From NCBI RefSeq assembly GCF_000025565.1, contig NC_014108.1:20654-84653 (forward strand): a stretch of DNA of 64,000 nucleotides. The letters run 5' to 3'. Position numbers and translations under genes: made by a program. The number at the start of each line of letters is the position of its first letter. The stretch's first letter is position 1. The DNA comes from Enterobacter cloacae subsp. cloacae ATCC 13047 (GTDB lineage: Bacteria > Pseudomonadota > Gammaproteobacteria > Enterobacterales > Enterobacteriaceae). The notes beneath the pieces are model-generated. The model did not search any database and had not been told where the DNA came from. It saw only the letters and a program-made list of their open reading frames with translations. This document shows positions 2,968-61,815 of this stretch, piece after piece.

Positions 2968-2983
2968 TTTGCGCATGCGCAAA
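2968..2983. promoter_or_regulatory. Box A palindrome (copy 1)
   Basis: Perfect TTTGCGCATGCGCAAA, about 100 bases upstream of the parA start. One of two copies beside parAB, so a parS candidate. Confidence 0.75.
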
Positions 2984-3012
2984 TCAGTTTTGGTTTAAGT
3001 CGCGCCTCAACT

Positions 3013-3055
3013 TGATACAATATTATATCAATGCAGTGTAACAGTAAAGCGTTAC
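3013..3055. promoter_or_regulatory. Composite box B + box C
   Basis: Box B TGATACAATATTATATCA (3013-3030) and box C GTAACAGTAAAGCGTTAC (3038-3055) have centres 25 bases apart, with B on the parA side. Confidence 0.6.
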
Positions 3056-3096
3056 TTTGCATTATTGACGATAATTTTCTTCTTCTTTGCCTGCAA

Positions 3097-3114
3097 ATTT
3101 GCGCATGCGCAAAT
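3097..3114. promoter_or_regulatory. Box A palindrome (copy 2)
   Basis: Perfect 18-base palindrome ATTTGCGCATGCGCAAAT, 130 bases from copy 1 and just upstream of the TTGACA of the RHH-gene promoter. Confidence 0.75.
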
Positions 3115-3156
3115 GGAGTTTTGACAGAACATTCTGGCGCTTTTATATGGATTTTT

Positions 3157-3195
3157 ATGATACAAACACCTATCATGTAACACATAAACGTTACA
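3157..3195. promoter_or_regulatory. Abutting box B and box C before the RHH gene
   Basis: Box B ATGATACAAACACCTATCAT (3157-3176) shares its last base with box C TGTAACACATAAACGTTACA (3176-3195). Both lie between the predicted -10 and the ATG at 3206, the position expected of an operator for autorepression. Confidence 0.65.
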
Positions 3196-3205
3196 GGAGA
3201 TTAAA

Positions 3206-3547
3206 GTGACTACACTATATGTTCGCAAGCAAGGTAAACCTAAAGGCTCAAAGCCCCCTGCCACGACAGCGTCTCGTGTGAAAAAATATCGCCAGAATCT
3301 CAGAGATACCGGTGGATGTACAGTCACCGTAAATCTAGATTCAAAGGAGATCGAACAAATTGAAATTTATAGAAAAACCTCATTGTTACCCTCTTCAGTA
3401 AGCCGCAGTGAGGTTATTAAAAGTATGGCGTGTATTCTGGGCGGCGGAGTCTACTTTATACGTGGCCATGAGATTAGAGCTTCGGTAAACATTACAGAGA
3501 TCCCAGAGTACCCTGCGTGGATGAAAAATTACCTTATGATTCCCTAA
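3206..3547 (+). CDS. Ribbon-helix-helix DNA-binding protein
   Basis: The 113-residue protein has a basic N-terminal tail (about 1-35) followed by a typical RHH core: a strand TVTVNLDSKEIEQIEIYR, then a helix-turn-helix pair around SVSRSEVIKSMACIL (about 68-82). RHH dimers insert the strand into the major groove of short palindromes and often autoregulate. The gene is divergent from parAB and its promoter is packed with box B and box C sites, so it may be one of the plasmid's regulators and may bind one of these boxes (inference). The start has a good ribosome binding site (AGGAG). It could also be a partition accessory protein. Confidence 0.7.
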   Translation: MTTLYVRKQGKPKGSKPPATTASRVKKYRQNLRDTGGCTVTVNLDSKEIEQIEIYRKTSLLPSSVSRSEVIKSMACILGGGVYFIRGHEIRASVNITEIPEYPAWMKNYLMIP

Positions 3548-3689
3548 GAGCATTTGTAGAGCATACCTGAATGTACTGACCAGGCTTTCCCCCACTCCTG
3601 GTCTTTAAAAACTGGTTGCATCGTGCTTTGTGTATCTGCCATAAACTTAAGTACAATTGCGTTTATGGATCATACATAAGGATGTTTTG

Positions 3690-4493
3690 ATGGATATCGC
3701 ACTTTTTCCTGGTCAGAACAGGCGACAGTGGGCTGACACGATGATAAATCTCGAAGCTCGTAAGCTTGTTAATACCGCAAACACCGTTGCGGCCATGCAT
3801 ATCAGTGACTCACTGACGCGCCTGAAGTTTGTTGATGAGATCAGACAAGTCATCATGCAGCAATTTGAAGCCGCCAGACGCGCCACCTCTGATGAGGACT
3901 GTATTGCCTGCCTGAAGAAATTGAGATTAGAAAACAGCTCCTTGCTCGAACAGTCACGCATGCTCAAAACCGGCTACGCCAGGATTTATGCTGAAGTTCG
4001 ATATGTCACTGACCAGAATAAAATCGTTGGTTATTTCATCTCAGGTATCAAAGTCGTCCTTGCTGGCGTTCAGGCCGTTTTTGGTGGCGTAATGATCGCC
4101 TCCATGACCCCTGTAGGTATGCTTGCAGGAGCTGTTCTCGTCGGTGACGCTCTAAACACGGTTTCCAGGGAGGCGGCCCGGCAATTACTGAATGAACCTG
4201 CATCGCAAGGAATACTCGCTGATGGAGCGATGTCAATTGCGGAGTTCATGGGATTTAGTCGCGATGTTGGTCTTGGCGTATTCAACGCCACTACTCTAGC
4301 GGCAAGTGTCTATAGTGTCTTCGGGTTAACAGGCAAAGCTGAGGCCTGGCGGTTATTCCGTTATCTTCCGGGCGACTATTACCGTAAAGTACAAACGATG
4401 TCTCCAGGCAAGCTAAGCATGAAAGTTTTAGGATGGGGAGTCAGTGCAAAGGTTGTACTGGAGCTGCTCACCCACGACGATCAAAATCGTTAA
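3690..4493 (+). CDS. DUF4225-like membrane protein
   Basis: I chose the ATG at 3690 (267 residues, MDIALFPGQ) because AAGGATG lies just before it; an in-frame start at 3657 would add 11 residues. Residues about 1-100 are helical and soluble. A strongly hydrophobic stretch at about 114-160 (YFISGIKVVLAGVQAVFGG onward) suggests one or two membrane helices. The C-terminal part (VYSVFGLTGKAEAWRLFRY) resembles the end of DUF4225 proteins, a family of unknown function that I recall from enterobacteria. Its 3' end overlaps the convergent gene at 4468-4797 by 26 bases. A toxin/immunity-like pairing with that membrane protein is possible but unproven. Confidence 0.7.
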   Translation: MDIALFPGQNRRQWADTMINLEARKLVNTANTVAAMHISDSLTRLKFVDEIRQVIMQQFEAARRATSDEDCIACLKKLRLENSSLLEQSRMLKTGYARIYAEVRYVTDQNKIVGYFISGIKVVLAGVQAVFGGVMIASMTPVGMLAGAVLVGDALNTVSREAARQLLNEPASQGILADGAMSIAEFMGFSRDVGLGVFNATTLAASVYSVFGLTGKAEAWRLFRYLPGDYYRKVQTMSPGKLSMKVLGWGVSAKVVLELLTHDDQNR

Positions 4494-4797
4494 CGTGCGT
4501 TCTCAATAGTTTCCAGGATTTATAACCAACTTTAACAGGCATCACCAGAAGAAACACAATCAGCAGGAAAGCTACGGCTATTGCGCAGGAGATTGCCTGT
4601 GACGGGCTGCCAAAAATAACGCTCAGTATGGTTATAACGGCCATGCCTATGCAAACCCAAATGAACATCCTGAAATAGCCGGAAAGATCAAACAGAACCC
4701 TGTCCAGTGAATCACCGGTTTCAAGGTGACGTTTAATTCTCGCGACTTCCTTTTTCGTAAAGCCTGACGCGTGTAGATCATGTTCTTCCACTGGCAT
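4468..4797 (-). CDS. Small two-helix membrane protein
   Basis: This 109-residue protein has a soluble N-terminus (MPVEEHDLHASGFTKKEVAR) and two adjacent hydrophobic segments at about 46-65 and 69-91, then a basic C-terminus. It has a ribosome binding site-like AGGAGGAT just upstream of the start. It converges on, and its 3' end overlaps, the DUF4225-like gene. No family recognised. Two membrane helices with soluble ends would suit an inner-membrane immunity or accessory protein for its neighbour, but this is context only. Confidence 0.65.
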   Translation of the reverse strand: MPVEEHDLHASGFTKKEVARIKRHLETGDSLDRVLFDLSGYFRMFIWVCIGMAVITILSVIFGSPSQAISCAIAVAFLLIVFLLVMPVKVGYKSWKLLRTHVNDFDRRG

Positions 4798-4799
4798 CC

Positions 4800-5578
4800 T
4801 CCTTCCTTCTGTTTAACCTGTGGACACAGGATACACTATTTTGCACATGATGGATGGGTGCGCGGTTTTATGCGCGTAAGCGCATGTAAGTCGGCAGCAC
4901 AGAGTTTCAATTGACCCGAAACCCTAATCCGACGAAGCCCGGCGAAGCCGGTTCGTGATTGATAGGTAGCACCAATCCCATCCCCCCGCCCTGTTAAGCC
5001 ATAACCCACTTAATGAACGCACTATCATTCATAGCCCCCACGGTGGTGCGCAGTTAGCGCCGAGCGCTTGCGCGAGGGTACGCCGGACCTTCAGGTCCGG
5101 GGCGTGGTACTGCGAGTGCGAAGCCGGAGGCGAGCTACGGGGGCGTTTCCACTGGCCCTGCTGAGCCTGAATACTTGCATGGCCGCAAACTCAAGTTTGC
5201 CTGGCGTTTACGCCAGGTGCTACTTCTTAATTTTTCAATGTATGGGCGCTGGTATCGAGGGAGTGGTTTTATGCCCTGAGCGTAGCGAGGGGAGGTACAT
5301 TCGGCATTCCGAAGGATGCCAATGTAATCCCTTTTTTAAAAGGGCTTGTTTTGTTCAGAAACTACGTTCGAAATTAGCAGTATAGTTCGAAGTTAACTGT
5401 ACATAACTCACTCGATGACTCTATGGTGAGGCACTGGAGGGAGGTTTAAGCAAAAAACGGGGCGGAACGAACGAAAAACATGGAGAGCTACAGCTTAAAA
5501 ATCGAACAAACTTGTCAATCAGAGAAGCAGAGATACCGCCAGAGGCGGTTTTTAGCGTTTCAAATTATTGCGCATAAA
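4800..5578. other. Putative oriR region downstream of repA
   Basis: This stretch of almost 780 bases has no convincing gene. It lies directly downstream of repA, where IncFII and IncI-type plasmids keep their origin. It is rich in stable tetraloop hairpins, for example CCGGACCTTCAGGTCCGG near 5085-5102 and CCTGGCGTTTACGCCAGG near 5199-5216, and has a GC-rich left half and a more AT-rich right half. I saw no perfect DnaA box (TTATCCACA) and no obvious iteron array, so the exact origin cannot be placed. The assignment rests on position and hairpin content. Confidence 0.5.
5536..5553 (+). terminator. Rho-independent terminator facing repA
   Basis: CCGCC-AGA-GGCGG followed by TTTTT on the plus strand. 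It would stop plus-strand transcription from the origin region before it enters repA antisense. Confidence 0.65.
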
Positions 5579-5581
5579 GTC

Positions 5582-6631
5582 CTACTCAACTCCAGCCCTT
5601 GCCAGTAAGAGCCGGTAGAACTGTTCTTCATCGATGTGTCGTAATGTAGGCTGTTCTTTAGAAAGCTCGGCTTCCAGCCGGGTCGTAATGATCGGCATCG
5701 AGCGGCCACTATTCAGGTATTGAAGCCATTTAGCTTTAGCGGCTGCATGCAACTTGACGGGTTGCTTGGCATCAATTGCCTCCTGCAAGCTGGAGACGGC
5801 CTTCTCTTTCTCTTTGATTAACTCCGGGCTGGTGATCTGCCATTTAATCCGCTTCAGAAGTTTTTTGAGTGAATGGCGCTTTTCAATACTCAGGTCAAGG
5901 CGCTCCAGGCGAAGCAGGTGACGTTCATTACGCTGTTTTAATGTCTCACTCAGACCATTTTTACGCGTCCAGGCCTGAAAACGAGTAAGCATTTTCTTCA
6001 GGTGTTCAAGCGTAATGCCTTTGCTTGTGAAAAAATCTACAGTTAAAAAGATACGTAGTGCCTTGTACTGCCTGCTATCTTTGTCGAACTCTCTGACAAC
6101 AATTGCATGGCCCATTTCTTCCGTAACGCGTAAAGCGTGATACGCAACATCACAGGCAGTTCTGCCGTTCTCATATCGATGCAACACGCCCATCTGACGT
6201 GCAATTTCTTCAAACGGCACGCAGATCTCGAAAGGATATTCACTGCTGGGGTTGTAATCACAGTTGGCCGCCAGAGAAAAATGGAGGGCCGTAAGCGCTT
6301 CCCTGCTCTCAGATCTCACACCCAAGCGACGTGGCTTAGGTTTAAAGTTGGGATCAAATTGACGAGAGAACGGTGTATAGCCCTTTTGTCTGAGGGCAAT
6401 AAGTGCCGGATTGCGGTTCCAATCATGGTTGCAGATGCATGCGAAAAGCTGCGCACCAATACCTTTTGGCTGCTTTTTGATTTCGAAAGTTGGAGTGTAT
6501 CTGCGATGAATTTTAGATAGCCCCTTTCGTAACGTGTTGAATTCCCCACGCCTGGAAGGTCTATACCGGATCGCCTCTGGTATCAACTCATGATACAAGT
6601 TTGTATCAGGTTGATTTTCATTAACTTTCAT
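5582..6631 (-). CDS. repA: Replication initiator RepA (IncFII/IncI-type)
   Basis: The 349-residue basic protein has the size and layout of RepA initiators of the IncFII/IncI/IncL-M superfamily (about 285-350 residues). A basic N-terminus is followed by a winged-helix-like central region (FEICVPFEEIARQMGVLHRY, about 140-165) and a Lys/Arg-rich C-terminal helical part. RepA would bind oriR just downstream in cis and recruit replication proteins. No strong ribosome binding site precedes the ATG, and a short upstream frame ends in TGA overlapping the ATG (ATGA), so translation is probably coupled to a leader and limited by the antisense RNA at 6712-6838. A box B palindrome lies inside codons 8-14 (6591-6608). 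Function is well supported by family resemblance plus the antisense control; the exact Inc group is not assigned. Confidence 0.82.
   Translation of the reverse strand: MKVNENQPDTNLYHELIPEAIRYRPSRRGEFNTLRKGLSKIHRRYTPTFEIKKQPKGIGAQLFACICNHDWNRNPALIALRQKGYTPFSRQFDPNFKPKPRRLGVRSESREALTALHFSLAANCDYNPSSEYPFEICVPFEEIARQMGVLHRYENGRTACDVAYHALRVTEEMGHAIVVREFDKDSRQYKALRIFLTVDFFTSKGITLEHLKKMLTRFQAWTRKNGLSETLKQRNERHLLRLERLDLSIEKRHSLKKLLKRIKWQITSPELIKEKEKAVSSLQEAIDAKQPVKLHAAAKAKWLQYLNSGRSMPIITTRLEAELSKEQPTLRHIDEEQFYRLLLARAGVE
6591..6608. promoter_or_regulatory. Box B palindrome inside repA
   Basis: TGATACAAGTTTGTATCA has perfect 8-base arms and lies in the first 15 codons of repA, so a bound protein could block repA expression. 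Confidence 0.55.
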
Positions 6632-6711
6632 TCAAACTGCCCACAATCCACTTGTGAATTGAAAGCAGCGCCAGGGCTTTATTTTAGCCAATAGTTTGCT
6701 ATACTAACCAT

Positions 6712-6838
6712 GAAGCCATTGAGTAGTCTCGTCGCCAAACTAGCTACTTTTATGGTGTTGAGTGGTTCATATAGCGGTTGGTGTCTGGCACTGCCGCCTT
6801 CTTTAAAGCCCCGGTTATCGCAAGATGCCGGGGTTTTT
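6712..6838 (+). ncRNA. Antisense RNA controlling repA (RNAI/CopA-like)
   Basis: On the plus strand an extended -10 (TGCTATACT, 6697-6705) precedes a region with no gene. A stem-loop carries CGTCGCCAA, the complement of the TTGGCG loop in the repA leader. The RNA ends in a strong terminator: CCCCGG, an inner ATC-GCAA-GAT stem, CCGGGG and TTTTT at 6809-6838. The length of about 125 nucleotides fits antisense copy-number regulators. It would pair with the repA leader and reduce initiator synthesis. The start is estimated from the -10. Confidence 0.75.
6809..6838 (+). terminator. Terminator of the repA antisense RNA
   Basis: Stem CCCCGG/CCGGGG with a GCAA tetraloop inner hairpin and five Ts. Confidence 0.85.
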
Positions 6839-6839
6839 A

Positions 6840-7121
6840 CTATACTGTTTTTGTCACCTTAACTTCATCTTTCAGCAAATTGTCGTAACCCGGAAAACGA
6901 GCATCAAGAAAACGGATCACTGAACCTTTAGTGCTGAAGTCTCGTACTTTGCGCTTTTCTTTTTGGGTATGCGTAGTGACCAGCTGCGCAGTGTCACCGC
7001 AGCGCGTCATAAAATGCAGATGGTAGGGACGCGTAGAACCGTTGTCGAATGCGATCTGAATGCCGGAAAGAAAGTTCTCTTTCGCCAGCTTCACTGCCGT
7101 ATCCAGTTTCCAGTTATACAT
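6840..7121 (-). CDS. Small hypothetical protein upstream of repA
   Basis: This 93-residue basic protein has an excellent ribosome binding site (AGAGGAGG) before its ATG. It starts MYNWKLDTAVKLAKENFLSG and is predicted soluble. The TAG stop ends right next to the terminator of the repA antisense RNA, so it lies upstream of repA in the same direction, where IncFII plasmids carry the copB repressor. Sequence similarity to CopB is not evident to me, so a role in copy control is only suggested by position. Family unknown. Confidence 0.65.
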   Translation of the reverse strand: MYNWKLDTAVKLAKENFLSGIQIAFDNGSTRPYHLHFMTRCGDTAQLVTTHTQKEKRKVRDFSTKGSVIRFLDARFPGYDNLLKDEVKVTKTV

Positions 7122-7237
7122 AGAGCCTCCTCTTACACTTTTACAACTCTTTTCAGCATACTATATTAACTACTAATAGGGTAGCAGCTGGATTAAAAAA
7201 TGGTAAGATTTGGATCTAAATCCGGGGGTTGAAGATC

Positions 7238-7678
7238 ATGAGCGGTAAACGAGAAGGTGTAAAAGGCTACAAGCAAATCCATCTGAAAAAGTTCAGCAAG
7301 ACGATTTCGCACAACCTGCGCTTGCTTGCGCTCTCTCGCGACCTGCCTCAGTACGAGCTGCATGACAAGATCATCACTGACTTCATTGAAGACGCCGAAA
7401 TGATCCAGCGGCCACCGGTGATAGATCAAAGTGGCGAAAACGTAAGCAGCGCGGATACACAGGAACTTACCGCAGCATTATCAGCCAGACTCGTTATTCA
7501 ACAACCGCCGTTGGTTGATCAGTGTGGCTATAACGTTTTCATTGGACCGGAAGCTCAGGAACGTGCCGCAGCTCTGTCGGCAAAACTCAAGATACCTGAA
7601 TCTGAAATTTTTTACTCAGCTTTATTCGCGTTTGCCGACCGGTATAAGTTGAGTCAGCCACTTGATAAGGTCGGTTAG
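7238..7678 (+). CDS. Tandem RHH-type regulator A
   Basis: I favour the ATG at 7238 (146 residues) over a TTG at 7229. The protein appears to hold two RHH-like units. One is near YKQIHLKKFSKTISHNLRLL (about 10-50). The second is near CGYNVFIGPEAQERAAALSA (about 97-137). A repeated linker motif (PPVIDQSGENV and PPLVDQCGYNV) precedes or separates them, which is a sign of internal duplication. F TraY is a known single-chain tandem RHH protein that binds oriT and the tra promoter. The location just before the tra operon suggests a similar regulatory or relaxosome role, shared with the next gene. TraY identity is not claimed. Confidence 0.6.
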   Translation: MSGKREGVKGYKQIHLKKFSKTISHNLRLLALSRDLPQYELHDKIITDFIEDAEMIQRPPVIDQSGENVSSADTQELTAALSARLVIQQPPLVDQCGYNVFIGPEAQERAAALSAKLKIPESEIFYSALFAFADRYKLSQPLDKVG

Positions 7679-7754
7679 AATCAGGCTTGTCCTATTGCAG
7701 TAATTGTACTGACATTCTACAAGTCACCACAACAACTATAAATGGGTTAGAAAC

Positions 7755-8078: not shown

Positions 8079-8122
8079 GTCCTGCACCTCCCCTTACCCT
8101 TAAGTTACCGCAAACCGGCGTC

Positions 8123-8147
8123 ATGCCAGGAAATTCTTTCCTGGCAT
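8123..8147. terminator. Perfect 11-bp hairpin after the RHH genes
   Basis: Arms ATGCCAGGAAA and TTTCCTGGCAT around a TTC loop. No T-run follows, so termination may be weak or Rho-assisted. A 27-base motif shared with 34437-34463 starts six bases later. Confidence 0.5.
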
Positions 8148-8801: not shown

Positions 8802-9667
8802 TGAATTTTAAAAAAGCTGTAGTTGCCATCGCGATCGTGCTGGGTATGACCTCTCAAATTGCGCATGCGCAAAACGCTACCGATAAACCGGTTGCTGATT
8901 CTTCCAGCATGAAAGCTGCACAAGACCAGCTGGCCGCTTCCTTTAACGGCATGAGTATTACAGGTTTTGGCGAGTCACCTGTTAAGGGTATTTATGAAGT
9001 CAAAACCGGCAGCAATATTCTTTATTTCCATCCTGGTGAAGATGGCAAGAAAGGCGTTTTAATTTTCGGGGAAATGTATGATTCATCCGGTGTGAATCTG
9101 ACCGAACAAAGTAAAATGAATGGCCTGACCGATACTCTGAAAGGCCTGCCTCTTGACTCAGCAATTACGATTGGCCCGAAAGATGCGCCTGTATATTACG
9201 AGTTCACTGACCCTGACTGCCCGTATTGCCATGCTTATGACGAGTGGATCAAAACCTACTCAAAAGATCACCCCGTTCAACGTAAGTTGATTTTCATGGT
9301 AAACCCAGGTCATCCCCTGGCGCGCGCCAAAATTGAGCACGTAATTTGTTCCGACGATAAAGATGCGGCAGTTCGATACGTTTATTCATCCGAACTGCCG
9401 CACAACCCTGACGGTGCAGATGCCATGCAAATGGCTAAGCAAAAAGCTCTGAAAACTTGTAAGGAGGCAGATGCAGTAATAGAGCAACACGCAAAAATAC
9501 TTCAGGCAGTAGGTGTTAATGGAACACCATCGTTCCTGTTTAATGTCGATACCAAACCTAATTTGATTGTCGGTTTTAACCAGCAAAAAATTGCTGCGGC
9601 TATTACCGAACTCGAAAAGCCAGCCGTAACAAAGCTGGAAAAACCTTCCGCTAAACCTGCTAAATAA
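8801..9667 (+). CDS. dsbC: DsbC-like thiol:disulfide isomerase
   Basis: The 288-residue protein starts with a signal peptide (MNFKKAVVAIAIVLGM...IAHAQ). It carries a DsbC-type N-terminal dimerisation region (about 30-125) and a thioredoxin-fold catalytic domain with CPYC at residues 140-143. DsbC homologues are found in F-like transfer regions of the IncHI and IncA/C type and shuffle disulfides in cysteine-rich Tra proteins; here TraN, TraU and the protein at 16116 are such substrates. The cis-Pro region reads GVNGTPSFLF. The IAHAQ codons of the signal peptide are formed by a box A palindrome (8859-8872). The Lys/Pro-rich tail is unusual. Confidence 0.85.
   Translation: MNFKKAVVAIAIVLGMTSQIAHAQNATDKPVADSSSMKAAQDQLAASFNGMSITGFGESPVKGIYEVKTGSNILYFHPGEDGKKGVLIFGEMYDSSGVNLTEQSKMNGLTDTLKGLPLDSAITIGPKDAPVYYEFTDPDCPYCHAYDEWIKTYSKDHPVQRKLIFMVNPGHPLARAKIEHVICSDDKDAAVRYVYSSELPHNPDGADAMQMAKQKALKTCKEADAVIEQHAKILQAVGVNGTPSFLFNVDTKPNLIVGFNQQKIAAAITELEKPAVTKLEKPSAKPAK
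8859..8872. promoter_or_regulatory. Box A palindrome (copy 3) in dsbC signal peptide
   Basis: TTGCGCATGCGCAA is embedded in the coding sequence at the signal peptidase site of DsbC. Confidence 0.65.
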
Positions 9668-16119: not shown

Positions 16120-18146
16120 AGAATGTGAATATCCTGGCTTTGGGAGCATTTATGCTCCCTGTTTCATTTGCGCATGCGCAAATTCAGGCCACCCCGGACA
16201 CAGCCAAAATTACTGCAAGTAAGGATATCGCAGGTTCTATTTCATCAACGGTAAAAGGGAAAACCAGTAACGCCTCCCGTTTAAATGAATCGCAGATCCG
16301 TCCGGTATCCGGTGAAAACAATATGCGAACCTATGACGGCCAAACCGCATTTAACGGCAAAGCCGTTTGTAAAGGCTCATCTGAGTTCATGCGCATGCTT
16401 GTTCAGCCCACAACGAACGGTAATTTAAAACTGCTGAATATCATGCAGGATACCGATATGAACGGCTCCCTGGACATCACAACGTCACCAGGTTGGGATA
16501 TTTCAGTAGTTTGCAGTAACGGCTTTCAGACGTGTTCCGATGCGAATAATGCTGCTACCTGCACTTCTTGGGCCTGGGTTGCAGATCCCAAGAGCTACCA
16601 ACTAGGCCGTAAAAATGTCGCTATGACGGAACTGGGTGGTTGTTACTGCATAAATAACAGCTGTGGCAGCAATCTCGCCTGGAATAATCTGGGCCAAATT
16701 CTTAACGATCTGGGTGGCGGCGCATCACAGGCACTTTCGCGGGCAAACCCCTGGTTCACACTGAGTCAGATTAAGGTTGACGGCGTATCGGCATCTTTCG
16801 TTGGCGGTGACACAGCTTCATGTTCGATTGGTGATTCAGAAGGTTTCTTTGGTACTGCTGATGGTAAAAAAATCCTTAATTACAAGGATAATTATAACGC
16901 CATGAAGACGGATGCCAACAGTCAGAAGACCACCAGTGATGCCTACCGCATGATCACTGAAGGCAGCCTGAACCCAAACGAAACGTCTGATGTGTACTCA
17001 TGCGATATCACTCGCAACGTGAATCTGGATGAACCTAAGCTGAATGAAATTATCGCCTTTGATGGAGGGCAAGGTTCCGTTCAGCAATGTGGCACTGACT
17101 GCCTGCAACTGGTTTTAGGTCGTCTGGGTGATAACTACTGGAGCGGTACGTGTAAATACTTTGAAGTTGATTCTAACTTTTTCATCAAAGACCACACCCG
17201 TATAGCCAGCGCTACGCTCATTAACGCCGTTTTTGATGACTGGATGCAACTGTGGGCCGGAGATAAAGTCGTCTGGTCAGGACCGTATGGCAACTGGAAC
17301 GATGCAGGCCCGGTGCCTGGCGCATGCGAACTGAGCAAGTCATGGAACCAATCTCCGAATACGGACTTTAAAAAGTACCTTGATAAAAATGGCCCGGTCA
17401 AATTCAAAATCCGCGTCGAAGTCTCTGGTGAAGGCGAAGGATATGCTCTGGTACGGCTGAAGGCTGACCTCTCCTGTCGTGAAGGTGATGAGTATGTCTC
17501 AAACACCTGTACTGCTTATGAACAGGACCAAAACTGTCAGCTTGTCGATGAAACTGTGGACGGAGTGAAAACTTTCACTGGTAGCATCAACACCGGCCTT
17601 ATCCCTCTTCCCCAAACCCAGGTTCTTCAGGGCAGCTTCTGCTCTGTCGCTGTGAAACGTGATTGGTTTAAAAAGAAACGGCAATACCGATGCAACCGCA
17701 AGACAGACTTCAATTTCGACAAAATAATTGAGCGTAAGGCCTACATCGATAAAACCGTCACGCCCGGCGACTATAAAGACAAAATGTTCAATAACGGCAA
17801 GGTAACTTACGGTGCAGGTGAATTATTCTGGCCTGACATGCCGAAAGTGGGTGATTGTATAAATATGTGCAAAACCCGTAAGCCGAAACAAACTCCAGAC
17901 ATGGCTGTTTCCGGGCAGGTTGATAAAAATAATAAAGCGAGCGTGATCAAATATGACAATTTCTATTATGAGTGTGATGCAACGAACAAATGCCCTGCTG
18001 AACCTGGCGAGGAAGTTATTAAAGCTTGCCAGTGTCTTAATGAGTTCGCAGAAGCTTCAGCGATCATGCAGGTTATTCGCCAGGCTGGTCAGGACATGAT
18101 CTGTAGTTCCGGCAATCCCAAGAAGCCAGATGGTTCAAGCAAATAA
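16116..18146 (+). CDS. Large cysteine-rich secreted protein, TraN-like
   Basis: The 676-residue protein has a signal peptide ending FAHAQ and many cysteines (for example GGCYCINNSCGS and CSIGDSEGFFG). It lies between traC and the recognisable traN. Long TraN proteins of IncHI and IncA/C type exceed 900 residues, and this gene may represent an N-terminal or companion part of such a mating-pair stabilisation protein, now encoded separately. It would be exported and disulfide-bonded, probably with help from the DsbC encoded earlier. A box A palindrome forms the signal-peptide cleavage codons (16166-16183). Function is inferred from location and composition. Confidence 0.65.
   Translation: MKNVNILALGAFMLPVSFAHAQIQATPDTAKITASKDIAGSISSTVKGKTSNASRLNESQIRPVSGENNMRTYDGQTAFNGKAVCKGSSEFMRMLVQPTTNGNLKLLNIMQDTDMNGSLDITTSPGWDISVVCSNGFQTCSDANNAATCTSWAWVADPKSYQLGRKNVAMTELGGCYCINNSCGSNLAWNNLGQILNDLGGGASQALSRANPWFTLSQIKVDGVSASFVGGDTASCSIGDSEGFFGTADGKKILNYKDNYNAMKTDANSQKTTSDAYRMITEGSLNPNETSDVYSCDITRNVNLDEPKLNEIIAFDGGQGSVQQCGTDCLQLVLGRLGDNYWSGTCKYFEVDSNFFIKDHTRIASATLINAVFDDWMQLWAGDKVVWSGPYGNWNDAGPVPGACELSKSWNQSPNTDFKKYLDKNGPVKFKIRVEVSGEGEGYALVRLKADLSCREGDEYVSNTCTAYEQDQNCQLVDETVDGVKTFTGSINTGLIPLPQTQVLQGSFCSVAVKRDWFKKKRQYRCNRKTDFNFDKIIERKAYIDKTVTPGDYKDKMFNNGKVTYGAGELFWPDMPKVGDCINMCKTRKPKQTPDMAVSGQVDKNNKASVIKYDNFYYECDATNKCPAEPGEEVIKACQCLNEFAEASAIMQVIRQAGQDMICSSGNPKKPDGSSK
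16166..16183. promoter_or_regulatory. Box A palindrome (copy 4) in signal peptide of 16116
   Basis: Perfect ATTTGCGCATGCGCAAAT encoding FAHAQI at the cleavage site. Confidence 0.7.
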
Positions 18147-21812: not shown

Positions 21813-21830
21813 ATTTGCGCATGCACAAAT
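21813..21830. promoter_or_regulatory. Box A palindrome (copy 5, one mismatch)
   Basis: ATTTGCGCATGCACAAAT between traWU and the next gene, close to the ribosome binding site of 21844. Confidence 0.6.
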
Positions 21831-23488: not shown

Positions 23489-23506
23489 ATTTGCGCATGC
23501 GCAAAT
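23489..23506. promoter_or_regulatory. Box A palindrome (copy 6)
   Basis: Perfect ATTTGCGCATGCGCAAAT between the peptidase stop and traF. Confidence 0.7.
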
Positions 23507-30564: not shown

Positions 30565-30582
30565 TTTTGCGCATGCGCAAAA
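30565..30582. promoter_or_regulatory. Box A palindrome (copy 7)
   Basis: Perfect TTTTGCGCATGCGCAAAA directly after the stop of 30310 and upstream of the promoter of 30642. Confidence 0.7.
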
Positions 30583-31534: not shown

Positions 31535-31933
31535 ATGTTGAAAAATGAAGTACCGCTTGCACTCAGCCCAACATGCTTTATCCATCACGTTTTTATCGAT
31601 GCCTGGCATCATTCTCTTTCAACCATGATTCGAAAGGCCTCCAGACAGTTCGGAGAACAGATAATTTCGCATTATCGCTCAGACGATATCAGTGGAGAAT
31701 ACCGGGTATTTTCTGGATTTGGGGATGGTTACTGGATGATAGGCGTCGGTATAGAAATACCCGTTGATTTGTGCAAACAGTTCCCGTCATTAATTGTCAG
31801 CAACCGATTAATAGAAAGGAGGCACTGCCCGGATAACATTACGATGATCATAGAATATGAATTGGGGAAAATGCCCGTTGGTCGAATCAACGGGCATTTA
31901 ACAAGAAAATTAACCGTTACATGTAACGTTTAA
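31535..31933 (+). CDS. Hypothetical protein
   Basis: I chose ATG 31535 (132 residues, MLKNEVPLALSPTCF) because CAGGATGC precedes it. An ATG at 31496 is in frame but poorly placed, and the intervening DNA forms a hairpin (CGGCCTC-TTTAA-GGGGCCG) that may be a terminator for the upstream genes. The protein looks soluble (YRVFSGFGDGYWMIGVGIEI). The 3' end overlaps the convergent small membrane gene at 31930. No family recognised. Confidence 0.55.
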   Translation: MLKNEVPLALSPTCFIHHVFIDAWHHSLSTMIRKASRQFGEQIISHYRSDDISGEYRVFSGFGDGYWMIGVGIEIPVDLCKQFPSLIVSNRLIERRHCPDNITMIIEYELGKMPVGRINGHLTRKLTVTCNV

Positions 31934-34356: not shown

Positions 34357-34374
34357 ATTGTGCATGCGCAAAAT
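34357..34374. promoter_or_regulatory. Box A palindrome (copy 8, variant)
   Basis: ATTGTGCATGCGCAAAAT, two mismatches to the consensus, upstream of dnaB. Confidence 0.5.
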
Positions 34375-40313: not shown

Positions 40314-40331
40314 ATTTGCGCATGCGCAAAT
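40314..40331. promoter_or_regulatory. Box A palindrome (copy 9)
   Basis: Perfect ATTTGCGCATGCGCAAAT, 40 bases upstream of the TTG start at 40371. Confidence 0.7.
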
Positions 40332-46438: not shown

Positions 46439-46454
46439 TTTGCGCATGCGCAAA
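46439..46454. promoter_or_regulatory. Box A palindrome (copy 10)
   Basis: Perfect TTTGCGCATGCGCAAA, upstream of umuD (about 200 bases). Confidence 0.7.
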
Positions 46455-52042: not shown

Positions 52043-52058
52043 TTTGCGCATGCGCAAA
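52043..52058. promoter_or_regulatory. Box A palindrome (copy 11)
   Basis: Perfect TTTGCGCATGCGCAAA between 51280 and 52102. Confidence 0.7.
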
Positions 52059-56400: not shown

Positions 56401-58492
56401 AGTCGTACACCGCAGCACGCAGCTGTTCATCTTTCTGACGAATAATGGTCTGGACATTGGACGTTTGCATACCGAAGCCCTGCAATACAGCAAACGGGCG
56501 ACCCCAATCTACTGATTCCATCTGTTTCTTATCGCCAAGAAGCAACAATTTTGCATTGCTTCGCTCAGCTTCCATTATGAGGGCATGCTGATTGTCAGCC
56601 CCAACAAGACTCGCCTCATCGACAAGCCAGATTTCACGGGTGCTGACAGTGCCTTTCATGCGCCGGTACAGGAATGAATCTACCGTGCTGGCCGGGATAC
56701 CTGTTTCCTTCGCGAGCGTCTCTGTAGCGGAACCGGTTGGCGCTAATCCCTTGAAGCTAAAGCCTTTAGATTGACCGTAACCAATCAGACACTGGAGTAA
56801 CGTAGTTTTACCGGTTCCGGCGAATCCCTGTATGCCGGATACCAGGTCTTTGTTTGTGGCCGCATCGATAATCGCCTGCCTCTGGTCTGGCGAGAAAGCA
56901 AACTGTGAACCAAATTCTACGGTCTTTTCTGCTTCAAACTGATCGATGTATGCAGCGATACTGGAAACATCACCGGCGGCCTGACGCGACTCCTTACCAC
57001 TAAGCATGGTCAGGACCATTTCACGCTCTTTTTCGAATGCTTTCGGCGTGGTGTAAGCAGCTTCACCATTTCCTGATCTGGAAGTACGGGGAAGCAGCTC
57101 CCCGGAGTTGACCATCGCCCGGAGTATTTGTTCTATATCACCAGGTAGAGCCTCGCCTATTGCAAGACCCATTGCCTCACTCATTACGCTGCTGTGCGTA
57201 AACACTGCTTCGTCTGCCGCCTTAACTTTATAGGCAAGCCTGACGTCATGGAGAATCGCCGCCAGCTCGCTCGCGGAAAGGTCCTGATGGCTGATGTACT
57301 CTCGTGCATACTTCTCTGTAGCTCGCTCAGTGCCGTTAATGTTCGCAATACCAGAAAGTAGGCCTGCATTCGTCAAGGGGTTGCCGGGACTTACCTCTAC
57401 TCCTTCGCCACGCTCAATATGATTCATATTTGTATCATTGGAGGGTGTAGAAAAATCAGTTTCATTTCCAACCAGATGCTCCGGCGCTACTGAGTGACTA
57501 TTTTCTTTAGGCCCAGAAACGCCTGTAACCGCTTCAGAAGAGTTTTCGCTGTCAAAAGAAGGTTGAGGGTCATCTAACCTTTTAAACGTCTTAGCATTGT
57601 CATAGGAGCGGTTAATAACCTCATCAAGTGATACCCCACTTTCTTTAACTGTTTCTTCCCATGAGGCTTTCAGCTCGTCATATTCCATGTGCGTTTTGGA
57701 CTCGCGACTATACAACGCCGCTTTCTCCATAGACTTAGCATCAAACAGTCCATACTGCTTAGCCGCCTCAAGAACTTCTTTGCGACGTTTAGAGAACGCA
57801 TCTAAAAGAGAATGAGGAACGCCTTTTATATCCCAAAGGCCAGTTTCATGATCAATTTCGAGATCGTAGCCTAATTGCTTTACTAATTTGGCTAAATGAG
57901 AACGATAAACCAGACCAATTCCAAGCTGATTTTCAAACATTTTTAGGGTTTCAAGGCTTCGCCATTGCCCTGATTCATCCATCACTGCATTCATCACGAC
58001 ATTATGCGAGTGTAACTGCGGATCATGTTTTCTCGATTCAGTATGGACGTAGCTTGCATATACCAGATTATTAACTTTGGTGTATTCAGTATTACCGCCA
58101 TTTGATATACGCGTTAATGCATATTCTTTCTCTAAAAACTTCATTGTTTCAGCTGTAGCTTTTATGTGCGCATCAACTAAGCGTTTATCGTTACCAGCCA
58201 ATGCTAACACCGAAACACTTTTTGGGGCTGATAAAGTAAAATCCCAGGCAGGAACATGTGAAATTGTTCCATCACCGCCATTTTTACCCAAATGAATTTC
58301 GGGACTTATACGCCCCTCAAGCATCCGAACAAAATCTTCAGATTCGACTGGCCCCTCCAGACCTAAAATTTCAGCGCCAGCACCGCCCCATCGAGACGTA
58401 ATATCACCGCTATCCTTATCATAATATTGGTCAGGCGAATTATAATACGAAGAAGCCTGAGCAACATTTGTAACTTTAGCAACACTAAGCAT
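53486..58492 (-). CDS. traI: TraI relaxase-helicase (MOBF)
   Basis: The 1668-residue protein has a MOBF relaxase domain (about 1-310) with paired tyrosines (ASSYYNSPDQYYDKDS, Tyr16-17 and 23-24) and the histidine cluster HDPQLHSHN. A RecD-like helicase follows with Walker A GFAGTGKTT (Lys about 561), Walker B WLVDEASLVG, GDKKQ, SYAMTSYKAQGKTVDRV and YVNLSRARYE. A second RecD-like copy (about 1100-1600) is degenerate: ILITGSDLSGHR where the P-loop should be and WVVENVSQMG (about 1223) for the DE box. F TraI has the reverse order (inactive first, active second). It nicks oriT and unwinds the transferred strand. A box B-like site lies within (57419-57438). Its ATG overlaps the traD stop. Confidence 0.95.
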   Translation of the reverse strand: MLSVAKVTNVAQASSYYNSPDQYYDKDSGDITSRWGGAGAEILGLEGPVESEDFVRMLEGRISPEIHLGKNGGDGTISHVPAWDFTLSAPKSVSVLALAGNDKRLVDAHIKATAETMKFLEKEYALTRISNGGNTEYTKVNNLVYASYVHTESRKHDPQLHSHNVVMNAVMDESGQWRSLETLKMFENQLGIGLVYRSHLAKLVKQLGYDLEIDHETGLWDIKGVPHSLLDAFSKRRKEVLEAAKQYGLFDAKSMEKAALYSRESKTHMEYDELKASWEETVKESGVSLDEVINRSYDNAKTFKRLDDPQPSFDSENSSEAVTGVSGPKENSHSVAPEHLVGNETDFSTPSNDTNMNHIERGEGVEVSPGNPLTNAGLLSGIANINGTERATEKYAREYISHQDLSASELAAILHDVRLAYKVKAADEAVFTHSSVMSEAMGLAIGEALPGDIEQILRAMVNSGELLPRTSRSGNGEAAYTTPKAFEKEREMVLTMLSGKESRQAAGDVSSIAAYIDQFEAEKTVEFGSQFAFSPDQRQAIIDAATNKDLVSGIQGFAGTGKTTLLQCLIGYGQSKGFSFKGLAPTGSATETLAKETGIPASTVDSFLYRRMKGTVSTREIWLVDEASLVGADNQHALIMEAERSNAKLLLLGDKKQMESVDWGRPFAVLQGFGMQTSNVQTIIRQKDEQLRAAVYDSISGNFSQAFSRLKDSVYDMEKHSILDDYLALSQADREKTLVIIPDNEGRQDFNASVHEKRVNDGELSANEVAVRSLLSENLNEAERTDSRYYRFGQIIEFQLDHGEFKKGEFWKVAEVSGKELLLKSGDGQERKFNPSEITGKSKFAIDVFREDKILFSEQEKVVFTKSRKDLNVRNGDEFKVSRIDSTSGTFILTDEKGKELSLDSSKLHNISHSYAMTSYKAQGKTVDRVMAQIESWRRNLVNERSFYVNLSRARYEARLYVDNVGKVIKALSEHDANKTTSLTGFSTKSMKRAAEHLQAESTDTRQLYADLNIATQKLANKQGVFSHSALVAETLKNTLGTYDVRDIETAIYAMRMRGEVGLSHINHEKVNSENYYTMPQNIRNEAQIVRHMLQGKDRYAPIAGKSVVSRYLSAREDKARQGIAEPVSAATQAALTTVMTSRDEAILITGSDLSGHRDVMREIGKDIAKERGYRVKGFSTTAEGVKQMRESMKFSANIYQHLDQMEAKIAAGQIVRPGKELWVVENVSQMGAENVLRLQQAARYVGARMVLVADRQENSIAWGNMPSLLAEQGIATIDFDKANRSLNPEINLATDKLTQGKIEDALAHVSPMMSEVRDLDNQNNDRTIRLNVIANSWLNLSPEDRAKTAIVIPDYLSRNKVDVQIRRGLQSEGVLQGTPLTTALYRNANLDPFEKKVATNYKPGQVVQFESQRPGIEKGAYYTVEAVNKAGNELILVSLEAGHRVTINAADIAGSRNNSVQVFHVEQKQIQKGETLRFTRTVPADKLESADGKGVSSKMTGSVVSLDGTKVTLRLANNRQVTVDAASWKHMEWGYSNNMFNIKDKQFDNVITLMESWKKQFATQEALHNALTKTAVNLRIITDDKEKLLDSLRTNPGFRQTALQDRKVSITKSDMAAFDKQFGTGLGFGMRSLMKLEAAVDKAVTSTVSKVVEKTREVAQKTRQKSL
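57419..57438. promoter_or_regulatory. Box B palindrome inside traI
   Basis: ATGATTCATATTTGTATCAT, one arm mismatch to the consensus, in the traI linker coding region. It may be functional or fortuitous. Confidence 0.35.
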
Positions 58493-60765
58493 TACATGCC
58501 TCCTGGATATTCATGCTGGTCAAATGACTTCTCATTATTTCGATTAGTCACGTCATTGTTACTGTTTTTCTCCGTATTTGATTGCTCAGTTGAGAATGAA
58601 CTTTCATACTCCGCCAGAAAATCGTGAGCAACCTGCGTATCAAATTGAAGGTTAGAGAAATCCCCTTCATCATCCTGATCATCTGCGTCAGACTGTTTCT
58701 TATTTGCAGCGTTCATAGCCTGAGCAACTGCATTCATCTGCGTTTTCGACTTTACAGATGACATGGCCTGCGCGACGGGATTCGAAACATCGGCGTTCGA
58801 CGTCGTCTTACTGCCATCCGGCGGTGCAGAGTTATCAATAACTTCATCCAGGACTTGCTCCTGCGTTTTACCCGCATCAGGGTTTGGCTTACTCCCTTGT
58901 TTGAACTTCTGCGGTTCACGCTTCTCTCTGGAGTTTTCTTTGTTAACGATACTGACTACATGTTCAGGGGAAATCTCATTCTCTTTGGACAACTGCGAAA
59001 GGAAGGAGGTGTCGTTTAATGCTTCATTTTCAATGATGCCTGGATGCAGCTCCTTCATATAGTCGTAAGGGAACTTGATTTTTGCTACAGGCAAGCCGCG
59101 ACCTAACTTCAGATAACAGGTGTTATCCGGCAATGCTGTGATCTGGCTTCGCAGGATTAGATTTCCTTCTTTGTCCTGACGATTTATCGATGTTGCATCA
59201 CGAACATCATTTGCGCCGTAGCTTGTATTTTCCGACGATTTCTCCGTCTCCTGATCACCCAACTGGTCAGCTAACCATGCAGCCCCTTTACTACCATTGA
59301 TACGAAAAGCGGCTATTGCACCGATACCATCCATCAGGATCTGACTTTTCTTTTCCCCGTAGACAACATCAGTCTGAGCATTGGACTGAAAGCCCAAGAT
59401 TGGGAAGCCACCAAATTTTCGGCATGTTGACATGAAATCAGGTAGCGAGGGGATCTCCTGAAGAGTACCTGCTTCATCGATGCTCGTACCAATTAAACGG
59501 TCTTGAGATGGTTCGAGAGTCAGAATTGCAGACAGGGCAGATTCGATCATCATGGTAATCATCGGCTTGAGAGTATCCTTCATATCGTCACGCACAGTGA
59601 TGAATACCCAGGCATCAGAATCTTCGTCCTGTGCCCAATTTTTGAAGGAAAATCGTGGGCCGGTAGGGAGAGCAAGGTGTTTAAAATTTCGGGTGTAAGC
59701 GGTTATAACAGCCCTTACTGAACCGGCCAATTTGTCGAGATCTAAATTCATGACGTTACGAGCATCGGTCGTAGCAACAACGTTGGCAATCTTGTCGTTT
59801 GGCATACGAAGAATGATATTCATCAAGTGCTCGACTGAGGGAACGTCATAGCGCTTTCCGAGTTGTTCCAGCAAAGCCGAAAATAACAAGCGTGGAGCCT
59901 CAATCCAGAATGGATCTCCTCCCCCATTGTTGTCTGGTATAGCGGCTTTCGCCATACGGTCATACATTGCCGGGTTTTTCCCTTCAGCCCAGAAATCCCA
60001 TGAGTGTGATCGGGTATCAAATACGTTCAGAATTACATCTTTTCCCGGACGATAAAAACGCTTAACAAATTCACCTGAAATATCATAAAGCACTGCCTTT
60101 CTTTGCTGCGCTCTTAGCTGGCGCAGCAATTCCCTGATAATGGTGGATTTACCTACACCCGGAGAGCCTAAAAGAGCTATGCCAGAGTTTTCCTGATAAC
60201 GTACAAGAGGTACATTCGCGATAGATATCCGAGAAAGACGACCATCTTCCTTCACTCTATCGTTAGCTGCTTCAATCAGTTCCTTTACAGTGGCAAGTTC
60301 AGCACCTCGACGATGCTCATCCTTACTTTCCTGCTTGCCTTTGTTGAGAATAAATCGGAAGAGATACCATGCTGCAATAAGTGCGACAATTGATGAGATA
60401 ACAAGGCTTATTATCAGGTTGGATATCAGCGCATCCGCATGATTTTGCATTGTCGGTGAGCTAACTATCTGAGCATCCCTAACCATAACTTTACGGCCAT
60501 CAGGTAGCTCAAGCGTGGTTTTACCTTTCTTAAGACCAATCAGTTCAACTAATGTGTAGGAGTAGCCATACTTTAACCCCATGTACCAGTCAGTCTTATC
60601 AGTGATTTGGTAAGTCACGGCGGTGGTGGCAATAACAAACACACATAAGACAATCTTGAAGTACCTCGTCAGAGTTTGGTGCAACATACGGATGAAGTGC
60701 ATCAATACCTGACCGCCACGGTTTAGGTCCGATACGGTGCTTTTTTCCTGTTTCTGGTCGAGCAT
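58492..60765 (-). CDS. traD: TraD coupling protein (VirD4-type ATPase)
   Basis: The 757-residue protein has two N-terminal membrane helices (about 38-58 and 112-138) with a periplasmic loop between, then the FtsK-like motor: Walker A LGSPGVGKSTII (about 199-210) and Walker B IDEAG in GTSIDEAGTLQEIP. It couples the TraI-DNA complex to the secretion channel. The long acidic, Gln/Asn-rich tail (about 640-757) probably contacts relaxosome proteins as F TraD does. F TraD is 717 residues. It overlaps traI and is two bases from the RHH gene. Confidence 0.95.
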   Translation of the reverse strand: MLDQKQEKSTVSDLNRGGQVLMHFIRMLHQTLTRYFKIVLCVFVIATTAVTYQITDKTDWYMGLKYGYSYTLVELIGLKKGKTTLELPDGRKVMVRDAQIVSSPTMQNHADALISNLIISLVISSIVALIAAWYLFRFILNKGKQESKDEHRRGAELATVKELIEAANDRVKEDGRLSRISIANVPLVRYQENSGIALLGSPGVGKSTIIRELLRQLRAQQRKAVLYDISGEFVKRFYRPGKDVILNVFDTRSHSWDFWAEGKNPAMYDRMAKAAIPDNNGGGDPFWIEAPRLLFSALLEQLGKRYDVPSVEHLMNIILRMPNDKIANVVATTDARNVMNLDLDKLAGSVRAVITAYTRNFKHLALPTGPRFSFKNWAQDEDSDAWVFITVRDDMKDTLKPMITMMIESALSAILTLEPSQDRLIGTSIDEAGTLQEIPSLPDFMSTCRKFGGFPILGFQSNAQTDVVYGEKKSQILMDGIGAIAAFRINGSKGAAWLADQLGDQETEKSSENTSYGANDVRDATSINRQDKEGNLILRSQITALPDNTCYLKLGRGLPVAKIKFPYDYMKELHPGIIENEALNDTSFLSQLSKENEISPEHVVSIVNKENSREKREPQKFKQGSKPNPDAGKTQEQVLDEVIDNSAPPDGSKTTSNADVSNPVAQAMSSVKSKTQMNAVAQAMNAANKKQSDADDQDDEGDFSNLQFDTQVAHDFLAEYESSFSTEQSNTEKNSNNDVTNRNNEKSFDQHEYPGGM

Positions 60766-60767
60766 AA

Positions 60768-61118
60768 TTAGTCCTCCACGCCTAGCTGTTTCATGATGTT
60801 GCTTACGCGCGCATTACTTTTTGAGAAGATAAATTTACTGGCAATCTCTGTTGCAGCATCTTCACTGAGTTCAGGATTTGCACTCATGATGATGAACACC
60901 GCCAGGTGAATAATGTTGTAGGAAGAGGACAGTACATGCTTAAGAGACACATCTGCCTTGAAGGTTGACGTTCCAGCATTGGTTAGCTCATTGATGACTA
61001 TTTTTTTTGCCAGCTCATTTACAGACATACCCCGCCTTGCGGCTTCCTTCTGAAGCGCTAGATCCAGTGCTCCCGATAAGCGGAATTGAATCTGCTGCTT
61101 GGTCTTAACGTTTCCCAT
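60768..61118 (-). CDS. RHH relaxosome accessory protein (TrwA-like position)
   Basis: The 116-residue protein has an N-terminal RHH domain (QIQFRLSGALDLALQKEAAR, then GMSVNELAKKIVINEL) and a helical C-terminal part. The order RHH-coupling protein-relaxase away from oriT is that of R388 (trwA-trwB-trwC). TrwA binds oriT and represses its operon. Five GTATAC sites and one box B (61148-61167) lie just upstream and are candidate binding sites. I do not assign a symbol because the sequence itself was not recognised as TrwA or TraM. Confidence 0.75.
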   Translation of the reverse strand: MGNVKTKQQIQFRLSGALDLALQKEAARRGMSVNELAKKIVINELTNAGTSTFKADVSLKHVLSSSYNIIHLAVFIIMSANPELSEDAATEIASKFIFSKSNARVSNIMKQLGVED

Positions 61119-61147
61119 GTGTAAAGCACCTCCTTTGATGCATATAA

Positions 61148-61167
61148 ATGATACATATTTGTATCAT
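61148..61167. promoter_or_regulatory. Box B palindrome upstream of the RHH-traD-traI operon
   Basis: ATGATACATATTTGTATCAT, near-perfect, 30 bases upstream of the start at 61118. Confidence 0.65.
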
Positions 61168-61175
61168 AGAACATT

Positions 61176-61333
61176 GTATACATCCATTTCCCCAGACGGG
61201 CCGGGATATTCCCTGTTATTTCTCGACGTATGTGTATACCTCAGTGTGTATACGCCTCTCAGTCTTTGTGCTTCGCGGCTTTTAAAGGGGTAAATATGAA
61301 AATGTATACAGATTCGTACATGATGGGGTATAC
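61176..61333. promoter_or_regulatory. Cluster of five GTATAC sites
   Basis: GTATAC occurs at 61176, 61234, 61248, 61304 and 61328 (first base). About 0.04 copies would be expected by chance in this length. The two at 61234 and 61248 sit in GTGTATAC direct repeats 14 bases apart. Likely binding sites of the relaxosome accessory RHH protein. Confidence 0.65.
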
Positions 61334-61368
61334 CCCCTAAAGCTAGGCGCAGCATGGCTTTAGGCTCA

Positions 61369-61392
61369 GCATTGTATAATGCGTGGGGTGTG
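61369..61392 (+). other. nic site and its hairpin
   Basis: GCATT-GTAT-AATGC hairpin followed by GTGGGGTGT. Predicted cleavage is between T61391 and G61392 on the plus strand, by analogy with F. Confidence 0.85.
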
Positions 61393-61560
61393 ACGCGATT
61401 TTCTGGACTTGCCCAGCGCACAATCTCCTTTTGCCTGGTTGTTCTACTCCAGCCTATGTCCCCCTCACTGTTCTCCAGCTCTGCACATGATCGCTTAGGT
61501 CAATCTCTATGACCTGGAATGAGCCTGCACCACTGCGGGGGCGCAGGGATGACTCTTGTA

Positions 61561-61743
61561 ACCAGGGGGCATCTGCGCAGCAGTGCGCCCGGCCATCACC
61601 ACGGCGGCAACCTCCTGCGCGGGGCGGGAACGGTCACGCGTCTGCGCGTCACCTGCCGTCACGATCTGCCCCCTGCCGGAACGCTGGCGCGGCGCTCCGG
61701 CTGTGCCGGACACCAGGGGGCATCTGCGCAGCAGTGCGCCCGG
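61561..61743. repeat. Two identical 32-base direct repeats in GC-rich segment
   Basis: Copies at 61561-61592 and 61712-61743 are identical and begin ACCAGGGGGCATCTGCGCAG. Each contains the inverted repeat GCGCA-GCAG-TGCGC. The interval is about 70% GC, against a lower surrounding level. They are on the leading side of nic. Confidence 0.75.
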
Positions 61744-61795
61744 TTATCACTACGGTAATGGCGTTACGGATTGCGATAAGAATATGAATCTAGTG

Positions 61796-61815
61796 ATTTT
61801 GCGCATGCGCAAAAT
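61796..61815. promoter_or_regulatory. Box A palindrome (copy 12)
   Basis: ATTTTGCGCATGCGCAAAAT, a perfect 20-base palindrome, upstream of 61930. Confidence 0.7.

Follow-up and report, generated by a model that had tools for sequence, protein, structure and literature searches.

Dispersed, regularly spaced palindromes as putative binding sites of a KorB-type ParB in an Enterobacter cloacae plasmid and its relatives

The stretch of DNA analyzed here (the window, 64,000 nucleotides) covers the greater part of the 84,653-bp contig NC_014108.1, a plasmid of Enterobacter cloacae subsp. cloacae ATCC 13047. It carries dispersed copies of a 16-bp palindrome, box A, together with a parAB operon whose ParB contains the DNA-binding domain of KorB. 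In all likelihood, the boxes are parS/O_B-type sites at which this ParB binds and is loaded onto the plasmid. Binding of box A by the window ParB is very probable, by KorB homology, by a joint change of site and protein in related plasmids, and by published precedents. A use in partition, by analogy with other ParB systems, is probable, somewhat less so than binding. That the spacing of the boxes has been selected for plasmid-wide loading of ParB is a nearly balanced question, leaning slightly to the doubtful side. A parS/operator network of a KorB-like ParB was also the leading explanation in a first-pass annotation of the window. It still leads, and is now joined by co-occurrence of the boxes with ParB, by a symmetric base switch that accompanies ParB divergence, and by a KorB-like structural model.

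Box A in the window and in the host genome

All twelve copies of box A described in the first-pass annotation are found in the window at up to three mismatches (Table 1). The expectation that chance yields essentially none is borne out by 100 dinucleotide shuffles of the window (mean 0.64, largest 3, same threshold). The sites themselves are correct, and some of their start positions had to be moved by up to 2 nt. The copies read TTTGCGCATGCGCAAA; nine of the twelve are exact 16-mers and ten have the exact 14-base core, the latter as counted earlier. Ten of the eleven gaps measure 1.7–9.8 kb as proposed, but the statement that most of them are 4–7 kb does not hold, with five of the ten inside this range and two just above it. 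Ten boxes are intergenic and two are in apparent signal-peptide codons (dsbC and traN), again as annotated.

The full contig has 18 copies at up to two mismatches. The rest of the 5.6-Mb, three-contig genome has two matches, both on the third contig and each with two mismatches; none was found at up to one mismatch on the other two contigs. Among 394 genomes of the order, exact TTTGYGCATGCRCAAA is present 14 times in the source genome, once in each of six others and not at all in 387, and none of the 393 other genomes has two or more exact copies. Box A is therefore not equally common in host chromosomes, a possibility that had been raised earlier as one that would count against a plasmid network. 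We reject a host-encoded binding factor, given the lack of sites at up to one mismatch outside the plasmid and the single exact copies in only 6 of the 393 genomes.

Related plasmids

Two E. cloacae plasmids, NZ_CP077213 and NZ_CP056778, are identical to the window over its first 25 kb. The best 60 of 538 records in a tblastn search with ParB show graded identities of about 98%, 63–66%, 49%, 46%, 43% and about 32%, followed by partial KorB-type matches. A working sample of 14 related plasmid records was drawn from these 60. Co-occurrence of box A with this ParB, suggested earlier as a check, is seen in 14 of 14 records (10–21 copies). At up to two mismatches, 13 of 13 records have 10–21 copies, and the reversed motif gives none in all 13; the remaining record, pKL53-S, has 16 copies. 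parA adjoins parB in all 14. According to PLSDB, whose gene tables are incomplete, eleven records are conjugative with a MOBF relaxase (ten MPF_F, one MPF_T), and three are non-mobilizable with MPF_F. Among the 394 genomes of the order, ParB (E ≤ 1e-10) is present in the source genome only, so that co-occurrence at the genome level amounts to one positive; a related-locus search of genome contigs found one distant locus only.

Site sequence and the Yersinia base switch

Conservation ends at the edges of the 16-bp box among 124 distinct sites from 10 enterobacterial plasmids (picked at up to two mismatches), and the central CATG has a frequency of 1.00 at every position. In a scan that used no prior motif, the commonest 14-bp palindrome is the box A core in each of 11 enterobacterial sequences (12–21 copies). 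The Yersinia plasmids pYE854, NZ_CP025801 and NZ_CP124241 instead have TTGTGCATGCACAA as their most frequent palindrome.

The difference between the two groups is located at positions 5 and 12, which were left free in the count, with one mismatch permitted elsewhere. In ten enterobacterial plasmids, 165 of 174 sites have C..G, nine are one-sided variants, and none has T..A. In the three Yersinia plasmids, 42 of 42 sites have T..A, 32 of them being exact TTTGTGCATGCACAAA. The ParB of the Yersinia plasmids is about 31% identical to that of the window. As judged from these sequences, divergence of ParB was accompanied by a change of the boxes across the whole network.

The base contacts of RK2 KorB are made by T211 and R240. 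Residue 204 of ParB, which aligns with one of the base-contacting residues of KorB, is E/D in the enterobacterial group and W in Yersinia. From this alignment, the change at residue 204 together with C:G to T:A in both half-sites is a candidate for the specificity switch.

The switch is also visible at orthologous positions inside genes. Nucleotide 57 of dsbC holds a box in 14 of 14 sequences, and nucleotide 45–51 of a traN-like gene in 13 of 14 (the exception is record W05). The boxes in dsbC, traN, trbC and parB are all in one reading frame (36 of 36; other small open reading frames were outside this listing), spelling (F/I/L)AHAQ, or (F/L)VHAQ in Yersinia. The replacement of Ala by Val, and a synonymous change of an Ala codon, follow from the DNA base switch. 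In these gene sequences, the DNA switch with its resulting changes points to selection acting on the DNA. An A-H-A sequence before Q fits a signal-peptidase site, and the box would be tolerated in signal-peptide codons because of this fit. The linker-coding part of parB itself contains a box in W09, W10, pKL53-S and the three Yersinia plasmids, the exact place differing between the two groups. AHAQ is present in 10 of 22 ParB homologs, at residues 258–277, inside a stretch that is disordered in the model (245–280).

Two other explanations bear on these data. In polycistronic mRNA, the box could act at the ends of genes as a hairpin (UUUGCG-CAUG-CGCAAA). The symmetric switch in Yersinia keeps the stem of this RNA paired as well, and many boxes follow stop codons. 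On the other hand, the would-be loop is invariant over the 124 sites, although nothing requires a loop to be a palindrome. Boxes are also located in divergent gaps, and a comparison of the window with Rfam gives no match at the gathering score of any family. This explanation is very improbable. The copies could also be what is left of a small mobile element or repeat, as about 116–510 bp of flanking sequence are common to three copies in the leading region of NZ_CP077213 and to four in pKL53-S. But most sites share only the 16 bp, and the common reading frame of the copies inside genes is a further point against it. The unrelated flanks of most sites lead us to reject a mobile element.

ParB and the proposed mechanism

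The putative reader of box A, the window ParB, has a KorB DNA-binding domain, an N-terminal CTP-binding fold in which the residues aligned to KorB R117 and N146 are kept, and a C-terminal SH3-like dimerization domain. Its predicted structure is KorB-like, matching RK2 KorB in the CTPase, DNA-binding and C-terminal parts. The protein is thus predicted, from the model, to be a CTP-dependent clamp. An extra predicted domain (about residues 281–376) separates the DNA-binding part from the C-terminal domain; a 400-residue homolog, P0023, is without most of it.

Another protein of the par neighborhood or backbone could bind the box instead, such as the 234-residue third protein of the par operon, its neighbors of 94 and 171 residues, or a small DNA-binding protein. 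The model of the third protein is confident (predicted local distance difference test score of 91.6), with weak winged-helix matches as the best ones, and has no Pfam match and no Foldseek match at E ≤ 0.001. ParB, which has precedents, is linked by its sequence to proteins known to bind palindromes; no such link was seen for these other proteins, and they are improbable as the box binder.

In the mechanism proposed for ParB, a dimer would recognize the palindrome, with each subunit taking one half-site. By analogy with KorB and other ParBs, the loaded protein would close as a CTP-dependent clamp and then slide over the flanking DNA. ParA would act on the ParB-loaded plasmid, leading to segregation. 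With 18 sites about 5 kb apart, mostly non-coding and not favoring divergent gaps, almost every part of the plasmid would have a loading site at a distance of a few kb at most.

Placement and spacing of the boxes

The boxes avoid genes. Two of 18 boxes are fully within annotated genes in NZ_CP077213 (15.1 expected), 6 of 16 in pKL53-S (13.0), and 5 of 14 in pYE854 (11.4). The intergenic boxes of NZ_CP077213 are in 3 divergent, 11 tandem and 2 convergent gaps, versus 4.2, 10.1 and 1.7 expected from gap length. Counts are near the length expectation in all three annotated plasmids, and divergent gaps are not preferred, by a plain comparison of counts. Many boxes follow a stop codon closely, at a distance of 10 nt or less (in NZ_CP077213, 6 of the 16 that are intergenic, random 0.9; 5 of 10 in a second plasmid, random 0.5), the proportion in pYE854 being just 1 of 8 (P = 0.32).

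The boxes are evenly spaced in the Enterobacteriaceae branch. Close pairs (≤300 bp, a chosen cut-off) were merged for this analysis, and as related plasmids share sites the tests across them are not independent. The coefficient of variation (CV) of the spacing in NZ_CP077213 is 0.44, while random non-coding positions give 1.07 (0 of 5000 as even), and that in pKL53-S is 0.58 versus 1.24 (P = 0.0004). When genes are mapped by homology, all 11 enterobacterial sequences have P ≤ 0.0037, and a uniform null gives P ≤ 0.03 in ten of them. Two of the Yersinia plasmids (W12 and W13) give P values of 0.005 and 0.048 with the mapped-gene null. Without merging of pairs, P is 0.0008 for the source plasmid and 0.0019 for NZ_CP077213 with the uniform null; with the non-coding null, 0 of 5000 are as even. 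As much as 91% of NZ_CP077213 is within 3 kb of a box, compared to 73% for random sites.

The longest box-free stretch of the source plasmid (window 52059–61797, 9.8 kb) holds mobF and the coupling-protein gene, whose length leaves few gaps. The longest gaps in NZ_CP077213 (11.4 kb) and pKL53-S (12.1 kb) are in the same region.

The placement bears on the most serious alternative, that a transcriptional repressor acting on the whole plasmid, either ParB in a KorB role or another regulator, uses box A as its operator, mainly to silence backbone promoters. The KorB proteins of RK2 and RA3 act in this way, that of RK2 also from distal sites. Two boxes are upstream of parA and one is upstream of umuD, and a second palindrome, box B, could by analogy be the operator of a KorA-like partner. 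However, the gap types are near expectation, the boxes are often just past a stop codon, two of them are in very short gaps within the tra operon (Table 1), and a simple scan finds no sigma-70-like promoter beside the parA boxes (shuffles 1.4). We consider repression rather unlikely as the main function, although boxes may act on promoters at a distance. The even layout, with no aim at divergent gaps, fits plasmid-wide loading of ParB better than promoter control, and both may be true at parA. A more far-reaching version of the loading model is tentative and carries less confidence than selection on spacing by itself. In this version the palindromes tile the backbone about every 5 kb, sparing gene starts and proteins. 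ParB would form a plasmid-wide coat of sliding clamps, and the change at residue 204 and in the bases would have been carried through the network.

Observations that weigh against ParB loading sites

Several observations weigh against the assignment of box A as evenly spread ParB loading sites. With respect to the binding protein, co-occurrence fits any shared backbone protein equally, as 34 protein families are common to NZ_CP077213 and pYE854. The DNA-binding domains of the Yersinia and Enterobacter ParBs are 36% identical and many residues differ, which leaves residue 204 as a candidate. An E. coli inovirus prophage has four boxes, three of them exact, with no ParB relative in the 5.5 kb examined, and another protein may read the same palindrome there. 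The first-pass annotation had placed two copies beside parAB; this is correct for the window but not universal, as pKL53-S has none within two mismatches beside parA, and one inside parB.

With respect to the layout, pBTX_120 is not even with the uniform null (P = 0.20) and has a 21.7-kb gap. pYE854 is not even either (P = 0.34 and 0.71, and 0.54 with the mapped-gene null), also after removal of its accessory block from the coordinates (P = 0.55). W12 and W13 have P values of 0.16 and 0.35 with the uniform null and exact T..A sites only. In addition, the absence of an aim at promoters is judged from gap types and stop codons in the annotation.

Comparison with known KorB and ParB networks

It is well supported that the box A network is a variant of the known dispersed KorB/ParB networks, those of RK2, IncC and NAH7 having other site sequences. 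The resemblance to RK2 KorB noted in the first-pass annotation stands for the protein and for the dispersal of sites, and is weaker for the layout, given the lack of preference for divergent gaps, the frequent positions within 10 nt of stop codons, and the even spacing. The RK2 operator O_B is TTTAGCSGCTAAA, which differs from box A and has 10 exact sites in the KorB plasmid pYKCS045. Moreover, the extra domain predicted in the window ParB is an addition relative to RK2 KorB. The known O_B operators serve promoters, near or distal: they are described at 4–10 bp or 45 to >1000 bp upstream of their target promoters. After loading at O_B, KorB closes in the presence of CTP and reaches promoters as far as 1.5 kb away by sliding (PMC11790492).

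The IncC plasmid R55 is similar in having a KorB-domain ParB in a parAB operon and 14 dispersed palindromes, most of them intergenic and four in open reading frames (PMC10954446). As described there, electrophoretic mobility shift assays showed ParB binding at three chosen sites, two of them plasmid-borne, the authors treat all 14 plasmid copies as parS, and parAB stabilized a replicon bearing one site (PMC10954446). The published 14-bp core, TTTCACATGTGAAA, differs from box A and has 14 sites at up to one mismatch in the IncC plasmid pMR0211, where box A has one site with two mismatches. The IncC ParB is 21% identical to the window ParB.

In the IncP-9 plasmid NAH7, the parS-NAH sites are dispersed intergenic palindromes, and ParB bound parS5 in mobility shift assays (PMC12421886). 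Perfect copies of this 18-bp site, TTTCTCGCATGCGAGAAA, hold the same central CGCATGCG as box A. NAH7 has 6 such sites at up to two mismatches and no box A at this threshold, and its ParB is 20% identical to that of the window. The spacing is uneven in pMR0211 (CV 1.29, to which a large accessory gap contributes) and NAH7 (CV 1.28, with a contribution from a 52.9-kb gap). By the same measure an IncP-type plasmid has a CV of 0.98; large gaps are present in all three, with accessory DNA probably contributing.

KorB of the IncU plasmid RA3 is a KorB-type ParB with roles in partition and global regulation; two additional sites besides parS are mentioned for it (PMC8124265). These few sites are unlike the 18 boxes here.

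Four exact box strings have no occurrence in the openly licensed literature searched, and none of the matches listed for GCGCATGCGC concerns plasmid partition. Among the matches listed from this literature, none showed the box A sequence, an even layout of this kind or a co-ordinated switch of specificity.

Dispersed KorB/ParB sites are known, and a plasmid may keep a dozen or more of them for partition, silencing or compaction. Even spacing without an aim at promoters makes the question of site number testable, by moving or removing boxes with gene starts left untouched. In addition, a DNA-binding protein and all of its sites would here have changed specificity jointly in nature, and one residue and one base pair are candidates for this change. 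The box also leaves a simple mark at the protein level, F/I/L-A/V-H-A-Q in signal peptides or the ParB linker, by which such plasmids may be found.

Features of the window and other palindromes

Table 1. Positions of box A, box B and the par genes in the window
Feature	Position	Strand	Context
Box A, exact	2968..2983		upstream of parA, gene 100 bp away
Box A, exact	3098..3113		upstream of parA, gene 230 bp away
Box A, 1 mismatch	8858..8873		within dsbC-like gene, codons near signal-peptide end (IAHAQN)
Box A, exact	16167..16182		within traN-like gene near signal-peptide end (FAHAQI)
Box A, 1 mismatch	21814..21829		35-bp gap behind traU; stop 5 nt before
Box A, exact	23490..23505		42-bp gap between S26 peptidase gene and traF; stop 4 nt before
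Box A, exact	30566..30581		tandem gap downstream of traG; stop of small open reading frame 4 nt before
Box A, 2 mismatches	34357..34372		between dnaB-like gene and 691-aa open reading frame
Box A, exact	40315..40330		tandem gap ahead of 207-aa open reading frame
Box A, exact	46439..46454		upstream of umuD
Box A, exact	52043..52058		traP stop 7 nt before
Box A, exact	61798..61813		stop 10 nt before; far side of mobF/coupling-protein (T4CP) region
parB	619..2010	-	KorB-domain protein, proposed box A binder
parA	2007..2867	-	Walker-type ATPase, proposed ParB partner; Pfam AAA_31, E 1.2e-19
Third par-operon gene	1..616	-	234-aa protein, truncated by window edge; weak winged-helix-like C-terminal part
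Box B, CGTTACATGTAACG	31915..31928		second, rarer palindrome of these plasmids

Box B has the form CGTTA-N4-TAACG. It is located at positions 147, 8977 and 52568 of NC_014108.1 (the last being the copy in Table 1) and at 5558 and 62334 of pYE854. Exact copies number 2–5 in 11 of 14 sequences, one each in W09 and W10, and none in W06 (about 0.1 in shuffles). The distance to box A is 20–64 bp for 6 of 7 Yersinia copies and 171–180 bp for many enterobacterial copies.

Among viral contigs, 35 stretches carry box A, as a single copy in 33 of them; of the other two, one has two copies and the other has four. The four-copy stretch is an E. coli inovirus prophage with its boxes, three of them exact, within 1 kb (L092 4412, 4787, 5261 and 5359); boxes are also located at L104 293 and 668. 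The four-box prophage is present in 9 of 5426 E. coli genomes, and searches for parAB relatives gave 3 and 1 of the 5426. No named strain has both the prophage and the parAB relatives, four of the nine prophage genomes being without a strain name. That the prophage hijacks the ParB of a plasmid is possible but unsupported.

In the apparent leading region, box A is found within a longer inverted repeat in a repeated module (116–510 bp shared). This module is located at about 323, 5618 and 9153 of NC_014108.1, outside the window, and at 1160, 4976, 7123 and 76618 of pKL53-S. A 116-nt piece folds as single-stranded DNA with a z score of about -4 on both strands, and an overlapping 146-nt piece with about -2. 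The module might be a single-strand element that is used on entry.

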